Positions 8,197-50,133 of a stretch of 64,000 nucleotides of DNA are shown one piece after another. The position numbers and the translations under genes were made by a program. The number at the start of each line of letters is the position of its first letter. Within the stretch, counting starts at the first letter, position 1. The notes beneath the pieces were generated by a model. That model was not told where the DNA came from and searched no databases. It saw nothing but the letters and a program-made list of their open reading frames with translations. The DNA is from Limisalsivibrio acetivorans (GTDB lineage Bacteria; Chrysiogenota; Deferribacteres; Deferribacterales; Geovibrionaceae), in the NCBI RefSeq assembly GCF_000421105.1, contig NZ_ATWF01000001.1, positions 2,305,407 through 2,369,406 on the forward strand, in the 5' to 3' direction.

Positions 8197-8709
8197 ATGG
8201 TTAGTAAAAAAATGGGAAAAGCACTTAACGATCAGATGAACTACGAGTTCTATTCAGCATATGTATACCTCGCCATGAGCGCAGACTGCGAGTCTAAAGG
8301 ACTCAAAGGCTTCGCAAACTGGTTCTACGTTCAGTATCAGGAAGAGACGGCCCACGCCATGAAGTTCTACAACTACATACTCGATCAGGGTATTGATGTT
8401 GAGCTTGATAAGATGGATAAGCCCAAGAAGAGCTTTAAGGATCTCCTTGAAATGTATAATGAAACTCTCTCCCACGAGAAAGAGGTTACCAAAAGGATAT
8501 ACAACCTTGTGGATCTCGCCCTTGACGAGAGGGACCACGGTACGAATGCGTTCCTTCAGTGGTTCGTAACCGAGCAGGTGGAGGAAGAGGCCTCTGTGAA
8601 CGAGATCCTCGACCAGCTTAAGCTTGTGGAGAGCAGTGGTAACGGAATCTTCATGCTCGATAAGGAGCTTGGTCAGAGAACACTCCCCGCAGACGCTGCC
8701 GCCGAATAA
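8197..8709 (+). CDS. ftn: Bacterial non-haem ferritin
   Basis: 170 residues with the four-helix ferritin pattern: NDQMNYEFYSAYVYLAMS in helix A, QYQEETAHAMKFYNYI in helix B carrying the ExxH of the di-iron centre, and QWFVTEQVEEEAS in helix D. It oxidises Fe2+ and stores it as a mineral inside a 24-subunit cage. Start follows GGAGGAG by 6 bases. It stands 26 bases after the branching-enzyme stop and may be transcribed both with that operon and alone; no clear separate promoter was found. Its 3' untranslated region is odd: over 400 bases of tandem repeat before the terminator. Confidence 0.95.
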   Translation: MVSKKMGKALNDQMNYEFYSAYVYLAMSADCESKGLKGFANWFYVQYQEETAHAMKFYNYILDQGIDVELDKMDKPKKSFKDLLEMYNETLSHEKEVTKRIYNLVDLALDERDHGTNAFLQWFVTEQVEEEASVNEILDQLKLVESSGNGIFMLDKELGQRTLPADAAAE

Positions 8710-8710
8710 A

Positions 8711-9060
8711 CCAGCCAGGTGGGCTAGTCTGGTGGGCTAGTTCGGGTAACGACCAGGGTATTTGGGTTAATAGTTGGTCAAGTGGGCTAGTCTGGTGGGC
8801 TGGTTCGGGTAACGACCTGGGTATCTGGGTTAATAACCAGCCAGGTGGGCTGGTCTGGTGGGCTGGTTCGGGTAACGACCTGGGTATCTGAGTTAATAAC
8901 CAGCCAGGTGGGCTAGTCTGATTGGGTACCTCGGCTATCATTTCTGGCTTAATTACGACCTTGCATAACTTAGCGGGGTGGGCTGGTTCGGGTAACGACC
9001 AGGGTATTTGGGTTAATAACCGGCCATGTGGGCTAGTCTGGTCGGGTAGCCTCGGCTATC
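8711..9060 (+). repeat. 63-bp tandem repeat behind ferritin
   Basis: The core GTGGGCTAG begins at 8719, 8782, 8845 and 8908, exactly 63 bases apart (third copy reads GTGGGCTGG). Each unit then carries TTCGGGTAACGACC and a GGGTTAATAACCAGCC-like end. The fourth unit breaks into a different stretch (CCTCGGCTATC), then a partial unit resumes at 8976-9018 and another GTGGGCTAG follows at 9028 with a second CCTCGGCTATC. The last two blocks are therefore a 120-base higher-order repeat. Units differ at a few bases. The array lies between the ferritin stop and its terminator, so it should be in the ferritin mRNA 3' end. No gene is seen in it. Confidence 0.9.
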
Positions 9061-9152
9061 TTTGGGTGCTGGACCGTGGCCTGCCTGTATGGTTAATCAA
9101 AATAACGGGTTGTCTTTTCTAACTGAAATCGCAACTTACAGATAATATTAAT

Positions 9153-9176
9153 GGGGGCTCTTGCCCCCTTTTTTTT
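9153..9176 (+). terminator. Rho-independent terminator of ferritin transcript
   Basis: Perfect GC stem GGGGGC (9153-9158), loop TCTT, GCCCCC (9163-9168), then eight T. It ends + strand transcription after ferritin and its repeat array. The T-tract contains the stop codon of the convergent DsrE-like gene (9175-9177). Confidence 0.9.
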
Positions 9177-9654
9177 ATTCCATGGGGAGCAGGGCGTAGC
9201 CTTTATTTTGATATCCGACCAAGGATACATAGCCGTTCTTAACGACCTCTATCTCCTCTATGATCTCATCCTCCCCAATCCCCTGCAGGTTGATGGCAAC
9301 GCCGCACTGCTGAAAGCGAACACCTTCCTTCACCATTGCACGGATACGTTTCTGCATCTCGGTTTTAAGCTTTGAGTCTAGGTTGTTTATGTGGCTGTCA
9401 CTCTTGGTCATAAATCTGGATGCGCCCCCACGGACAGCAACTATAACATCGGGGGTTGAGCCACCCGCTTTGATATCCTCAAAGGTCTGCTTAATAAGCT
9501 TAAGCCGCAGGTTCAAGAGGGCGGGTTTACCCTGGTTCAAATCTACTATTACCTTTGTTTTATCAACCCCTTTGAGCGCATCGGAAAAGTTTTCGGATGC
9601 GTAGGCAAATACACTGAGACTGAGTATGGTTATGAGAATAATGAGCTTATTCAT
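9175..9654 (-). CDS. Exported DsrE-like protein
   Basis: 159 residues. The first 19 (MNKLIILITILSLSVFAYA) are a signal peptide with an AYA-type cleavage site, so the product is periplasmic. The rest has the DsrE/DsrF-like alpha/beta pattern: KVIVDLNQGKPALLNLRL, DVIVAVRGGASRFM, and a Cys in GVRFQQCGVAIN in the position where DsrE-like proteins often keep a Cys. Family members are linked to sulfur relay, but exported forms are mostly uncharacterised. Start is supported by AGGAGG five bases upstream. It ends inside the T-tract of the ferritin terminator. Confidence 0.7.
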   Translation of the reverse strand: MNKLIILITILSLSVFAYASENFSDALKGVDKTKVIVDLNQGKPALLNLRLKLIKQTFEDIKAGGSTPDVIVAVRGGASRFMTKSDSHINNLDSKLKTEMQKRIRAMVKEGVRFQQCGVAINLQGIGEDEIIEEIEVVKNGYVSLVGYQNKGYALLPME

Positions 9655-49520: not shown

Positions 49521-49532
49521 GTCTTTTCTATT

Positions 49533-50133
49533 TTATCTATGGAATTTCCCGTCCATATAATCTGGGAAATTCATCATCCTGAGAATTTCCCTGCCGCTAC
49601 GCTTGGCAAAGCCTTCGCTTCGCTTACTTCCGTTACAGAATATGAAGCATAGCTCCATATTCTTCACTTCAGAGCCAACATCCATGTTGGCTTTATTCGC
49701 TTCAACCTTAAATGCATGATTAGCATAAGCTTTCATGGATGGGATCATATTATATATTAACCACTATAATTATCTTTCAAATGGGTTTTTGAGGGGTGTG
49801 GGGAACTTTGTTCCCTAAAAAGTTCCCTGCAATCTTTTGTCTTACTAATTTTATCTATGAAATTTCCCGTCCATATAATCTGGGAAATTCATCATCCTGA
49901 GAATTTCCCTGCCGCTACACTCGGCAAAGCCTTCGCTTCGCTTACTTCCGTTACAGAATATGAAGCATAGCTCCATATTCTTCACTTCAGAGCCAACATC
50001 CATGTTGGCTTTATTCGCTTCAACCTTAAATGCATGATTAGCATAAGCTTTCATGGATGGGATCATATTATATATTAACCACTATAATTATCTTTCAAAT
50101 GGGTTTTTGAGGGGTGTGGGGAACTTTGTTCCC
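49533..50133. repeat. 318-bp tandem duplication of a hairpin-rich repeat
   Basis: Copy A 49533-49850 and copy B from 49851 are nearly identical at an offset of 318 bases; B is cut by the IS30 element after 50133 and resumes at 51207. Each copy has alternating GAATTTCCC / GGGAAATTC arms (49542, 49564, 49583), GAATATG...CATATTC, the palindrome GCCAACAT-CC-ATGTTGGC (49674-49691), a CATGGATG octamer, and GGGAAC-TTT-GTTCCC. Both strands carry a short open frame over the copies, but it follows the repeat, has no ribosome site and is not credible as a gene. Confidence 0.85.

Follow-up and report, generated by a model that had tools for sequence, protein, structure and literature searches.

The ferritin gene of Limisalsivibrio acetivorans is directly followed by a tandem array with a 63-base unit, which raises the question whether this array serves the gene, for instance in iron control, or has grown there with little function of its own. 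The locus was analysed within a window of 64,000 nucleotides of contig NZ_ATWF01000001.1, the whole stretch of DNA under study, and against its own genome of 2.97 Mb in 3 contigs. The features of the locus are collected in Table 1.

Table 1. Features in and around the ferritin array (positions within the window).
Feature	Position	Strand	Remarks
Ferritin gene	8197..8709	+	Pfam Ferritin 5.5e-45; ORF of 170 aa; ends in TAA
Reverse-strand ORF, 96 codons	8651..8941	-	judged not to be a gene
Unit 1 (63 bases)	8710..8772	+	starts at the first base after the ferritin TAA
Tandem pair of 13-base monomers, GGTGGGCTAGTCT GGTGGGCTAGTTC	8718..8743	+	recurs at 8781 and 8844
Unit 2 (63 bases)	8773..8835	+	first 7 bases GTTGGTC vs ACCAGCC
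Unit 3 (63 bases)	8836..8898	+	
120-base step	8899..9018	+	unit 4 head (22 bases), unrelated middle, unit tail
Last partial unit, degenerate	9019..9064	+	end placed by eye (~9064)
Intrinsic terminator, GGGGGCTCTTGCCCCC then T8	9153..9176	+	6-pair G/C hairpin
Convergent neighbour gene, DsrE/DsrF-like	9175..9654	-	Pfam DsrE 4.2e-08

Tandem Repeats Finder reports a period of 63 bases at 8709-8920, with 3.4 copies, 87% matches and a score of 347. The original prediction had counted four near-identical units at this step; the 63-base step stands, while the array is composed of three full units and the 22-base head of a fourth, which is identical to unit 1 at 22/22 bases. The repeats are clear, and "near-identical" is a little strong for units that share 86-92% of their bases (54/63 between units 1 and 2, 58/63 between units 1 and 3, 55/63 between units 2 and 3). 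The broken step of 120 bases described after them is real, the spacing within the array being 63, 63 and 120, but it is loose, with 48/120 ungapped matches, 33 of them in the first 60 bases. The box GGTGGGCTRGTYYGG occurs nine times within 8718-9041 at up to two mismatches, against 0.67 expected for the whole window, and is absent at this threshold from the rest of the window. Units of this size repeated head to tail fall in the range of roughly 10-100 bp that defines minisatellites, and the array is taken as non-coding, since it begins past the TAA codon and the ORF on its reverse strand has no protein family over the cut-off. The array also precedes the terminator, and its description as a noncoding tandem repeat ahead of the ferritin terminator is supported. 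This terminator, the only one here with a long T run, lies 443 bases past the ferritin stop codon; a consensus scan returned no sense-strand terminator between the two, and a weaker consensus match (9191-9203) is located past it. As the array sits between stop codon and terminator, it should belong to the ferritin mRNA, and its position suggests that it is probably transcribed within a tail of ~440 bases.

A search of the genome for the unit elsewhere, proposed with the original prediction as a check, returned a related array at an unlinked locus, directly past the stop codon of a gene for an M23 peptidase (Pfam Peptidase_M23 7.5e-35) and in the sense of that gene, for which no recognisable sense-strand terminator was found in this genome. 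The M23 array is built of 13-base monomers, GGTGGGCTNGTCT, with periods of 13, 39, 52 and 78 bases, and its copies fade, by eye, with distance from the stop codon. The ferritin unit holds this monomer twice in tandem, and the strongest lag within the ferritin array is 13 (0.41, shuffle p 0.0045). An exact stretch of 23 bases is common to both arrays (E 1.9e-4 in the own genome), and their alignment scores 52, while the maximum reached in 500 dinucleotide shuffles is 35. Judged by their sequences, the two arrays are homologous. A ferritin- or iron-specific role is unlikely, because an array of the same monomer occupies the same position behind the gene of an unrelated cell-wall enzyme, and we reject such an element.

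A third array, with a period of 79 bases and 2.4 copies, lies directly past the stop codon of a gene that we read as CheZ-like; its protein returned no Pfam family across the 410 residues tested. The terminator of this gene stands 279 bases past the stop codon. Layout and composition resemble those of the other two arrays, and the kinship in sequence is weak and doubtful: the alignment score with the ferritin array is reached by 20/500 shuffles and that with the M23 array by 5/500, its score with the ferritin array is equalled by two of 154 other post-stop stretches, and the 13-base periodicity was not found (p 0.31). Once considered a sure member of the family, the CheZ array was downgraded for these reasons. 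The CheZ-like gene itself holds a 117-base in-frame repeat (2.4 copies, 95%; L089 13174-13459).

The setting of the three arrays was compared with a genome sample of 475,001 bases, which comprises the window, one stretch with the M23 gene and 20 sample stretches (one of them aimed at the CheZ array), and in which a simple self-written caller placed 371 genes. The arrays start at -1, 0 and 0 bases relative to the stop codon. Of 114 post-stop stretches that measure 100 bases or more, they rank 1, 2 and 4 by G+T and 2, 3 and 5 by GC skew, with a G content of 0.355-0.395 where the average is 0.213 (sd 0.053). In all three, the G-rich strand coincides with the sense strand of the gene and has a positive local GC skew. 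The 19 sample stretches chosen without regard to an array yielded no other G/T-rich array behind a stop codon; a short 16-base repeat (1.9 copies) lies 9 bases past a stop codon in one of the sample stretches (L077). The pattern GGTGGGCTNGTCTGG returned 26 matches in the own genome at up to two mismatches, and its reversed control 18; 15 of the 26 fall in the ferritin and M23 arrays, two in the CheZ array and nine elsewhere. A scan of genome contigs with an exact 24-base pattern reported two stretches, L058, where the match falls within an ORF predicted for the opposite strand, and L059. Tandem Repeats Finder detected about two 13-base copies and no longer array in each, and we read both as chance. 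At up to three mismatches, the 24-base pattern has five matches in the ferritin and M23 arrays, and a single three-mismatch match in each of six other genomes, among the 59 genomes scanned (own included). The same array at many unrelated loci, which the original prediction held to be the mark of plain satellite DNA, is therefore not what the genome holds: there is one clear further locus (M23) and one doubtful one (CheZ). Repeats of other kinds were encountered along the way. In the window, a 318-base direct repeat (49530-50133; 1.9 copies, 98%) lies 9 bases past a predicted stop codon and is unlike the G/T-rich array in sequence. Elsewhere in the genome, at C1:1360001-1380000 (L080 2243-3663 and 13713-14527), several arrays of 60-base period have units that share TTTCTAAGCTRCCTGTGCGGCAGTGAAC and differ in the remainder; to us they look like CRISPR arrays.

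Outside this genome, an array of period above 16 is absent from 22/22 ferritin loci of relatives, all of which belong to other genera. In one relative (G008; L053, L128), the ferritin gene and the CheZ-like gene are adjacent, point towards each other and have a single terminator between them; in the present genome they are on separate contigs, and each has its own post-stop array. In another (G011), a 144-base direct repeat of different sequence (1.9 copies, 97%; L150 1224-1497) adjoins the stop codon of the CheZ-like ortholog. No paper on the ferritin array was found in the open PubMed Central literature. The nearest published kind, as far as the available text of the sources goes, is the MIRU/VNTR class of mycobacteria. 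In Mycobacterium tuberculosis, 41 loci carry such intergenic tandem repeats, the units measuring 40-100 bp, and the repeat block between rnc and fpg starts 40 bp past the stop codon and is carried by one species complex, sister species lacking it (PMC2734929, in the part available); such repeats are thought to be transcribed (PMC3635867, likewise in part). The ferritin array shares with them, on the description in PMC2734929, the intergenic tandem units of such a size, the spread of related units over more than one genomic locus (through the M23 array, the CheZ array being doubtful), the position close behind a stop codon and the narrow distribution, with relatives that lack the array. It differs in sequence, in its distant host, in having 2-3 loci rather than 41, and in preceding a terminator, whereas the MIRU/VNTR described there lie between co-transcribed genes.

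On balance, we favour the view that the ferritin array is a lineage-specific, G/T-rich minisatellite of the 3' UTR, probably transcribed, that has grown in the gap ahead of the terminator and probably serves little or no function of its own. The 13-base G-rich monomer would have been duplicated by slippage or unequal recombination in a short gap between stop codon and terminator, a place that may tolerate growth, as extra DNA there would leave both the protein and the terminator unharmed. At the ferritin locus, growth would have continued with a 63-base unit containing two monomers, and the step would later have been broken to 120 bases; the M23 array would have been built from the same monomer, either copied or shared by descent. 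The periods of 13, 39, 52 and 63 bases fit the hierarchical growth of a short monomer, and the drift among the ferritin units and the fading of the M23 copies speak for a minisatellite. Other observations count against it. Slippage alone does not explain why an identical stretch of 23 bases is found at both unlinked loci, and a copying step is needed. In addition, three arrays of similar composition that lie exactly at stop codons show more order than would be required of a purely neutral process.

A bolder proposal, which we regard as possible but unlikely, derives the repeat family from an intrinsic terminator. According to it, the descending arm and the start of the T run (GGYGGGYT...) were copied head to tail once the ascending arm had been lost, the M23 array thereby replacing the terminator of its gene, and the ferritin locus acquired the monomer secondarily; such an origin would place an array rich in G and T exactly where the gene stops. 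In relatives, terminator-like structures no more than 120 bases past the stop codon were detected at 12/17 M23, 9/22 ferritin and 5/8 CheZ loci, by a script that missed at least one visible case (ferritin locus L055), the 17 M23 loci being those tested among the ones fetched. In the nearest genus, the ferritin terminator is found 6 and 8 bases past the stop codon in 2/3 loci. At the M23 orthologs, the descending terminator arm contains GGYGGGYT in 6/6 relatives from the two genera that are closest at the M23 gene. These terminators are located 21-31 bases past the stop codon, and one of the six arms holds GGTGGGCT exactly, with which the monomer begins; in this genome, by contrast, the M23 gene carries the array and lacks a recognisable terminator. 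A third genus mostly exhibits GCGGG arms instead. For comparison, an arm with GGYGGGYT is present in 2/36 post-stop terminators of the sample of this genome, in 1/9 ferritin orthologs (2/10 with L055, by eye) and in 0/5 CheZ orthologs, and the motif itself occurs four times in sense and four times in antisense in 154 post-stop stretches of this genome. The six M23 relatives count as one event because they are related by descent, and the base rate of such arms gives coincidence a chance of roughly one in twenty. The arrays themselves are devoid of an ascending arm and of a long T run and hence are not terminators now.

The other readings that we weighed are weaker than the minisatellite. One of them, which we consider improbable, holds that hairpins formed between the units, GGCTRGTT of one pairing with AACCAGCC of the next, shield the 3' end of the mRNA from exonucleases or bind a protein or another RNA. 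As sense RNA, the ferritin array surpasses its shuffles in folding (z -2.50 against 100 shuffles, and -3.63 with the terminator included), which counts against the minisatellite; however, the antisense strand also beats its shuffles (z -2.17), and the M23 (z -1.16) and CheZ (z -0.05) arrays do not stand out. An 8-pair stem is complete in 4/4 unit pairs on the sense strand (32/32 cells, against 27/32 on the antisense strand), although unit pair 1, taken alone, does not fold into it. With randomly placed changes in the arms, every pair is kept in 0.2-2.7% of the draws for transition shares of 0.33-0.8, but in 9.6% if all changes are transitions, and in 0.6-27% if the changes stay at their observed sites. 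Between the ferritin units, 20 transitions and 2 transversions are counted, compared with ratios of 1:4 and 9:20 for the two other arrays. The altered arm of unit 2 may be a recombined copy of the core, since the core is able to pair with itself through G-U pairs. A conserved hairpin, attractive by eye, was given up because 116/500 shuffles reach its covariation, which is computed from only four sequences. Rfam has 0 matches at the gathering score in the window. The GG runs also suggested a G-quadruplex, and none appears in the best fold of the three arrays on either strand with quadruplexes allowed.

Less probable still is an antisense barrier, in which the opposite strand, rich in C, poor in G and regularly spaced, loads Rho and stops transcripts that arrive from downstream. 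The available part of the RhoTermPredict paper describes Rho sites by a rule of 78 bases with C/G above 1 and a C every 11-13 bases (PMC6407284). Under this composition rule, the best antisense windows of the three arrays reach C/G of 3.44, 2.91 and 2.33, and they resemble the sites of that source in the excess of C over G in antisense and in the 11-13 base spacing of C over 78 bases. An antisense C/G of 2 is reached by 9/96 other post-stop stretches, the gene next to ferritin is convergent, and Rho is encoded in the genome. Against this, 12/96 ordinary post-stop stretches reach a C/G of 2 on the sense strand, and the score restates the G/T skew of three arrays that possibly go back to one event. 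The sense mRNA is opposite in composition to the sites in PMC6407284, as far as its text was available. Moreover, the gene behind the M23 array is co-directional, so that no strong antisense transcript is expected there.

That the array is a mobile repeat of the REP or MITE kind, inserting at stop codons, appears very unlikely. The same monomer does lie exactly past the stop codon at the unlinked ferritin and M23 loci, and the elements described in the available part of PMC3733652, which are tagged by GTAG and CGTC and thought to act as RNA, are likewise short repeats just 3' of genes, often touching stop codons. In contrast to them, the ferritin array contains no pair of inverted repeats of at least 14 bases, and by eye no GTAG or CGTC tag was recognised. 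The Y1 transposase associated with REPs (PF01797) has 0 matches in the genome, which rules out a REP with its transposase; the further loci are limited to the two named above, and the array pattern has no match in plasmids, phages or viral contigs. Lastly, it is barely conceivable that the reverse-strand ORF, open over 96 codons as 63 is divisible by three, encodes a repeat protein, since it shares bases with the end of the ferritin gene, the periods of 13 and 52 (M23) and 79 (CheZ) bases are not divisible by three, and its best Pfam hit, Synthase_beta, stays at 19.5 bits against a cut-off of 22 and spans 17 residues. The predicted opening of the reverse strand over nearly 300 bases does exist, and this ORF is best read as a by-product of the 63-base period.

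Altogether, the ferritin array looks like part of a home-grown small repeat family, not an iron-control device. In practice, this is a warning against an iron-related reading of the array and against calling a gene on its reverse strand. The M23 locus, with the same monomer, provides a second site for testing how such repeats spread. If true, the terminator-arm origin would show concretely how a terminator can turn into a minisatellite and how clean termination can give way to read-through. The ferritin locus shows that the tail of a bacterial mRNA can grow by several hundred bases while the protein and the terminator are left untouched.
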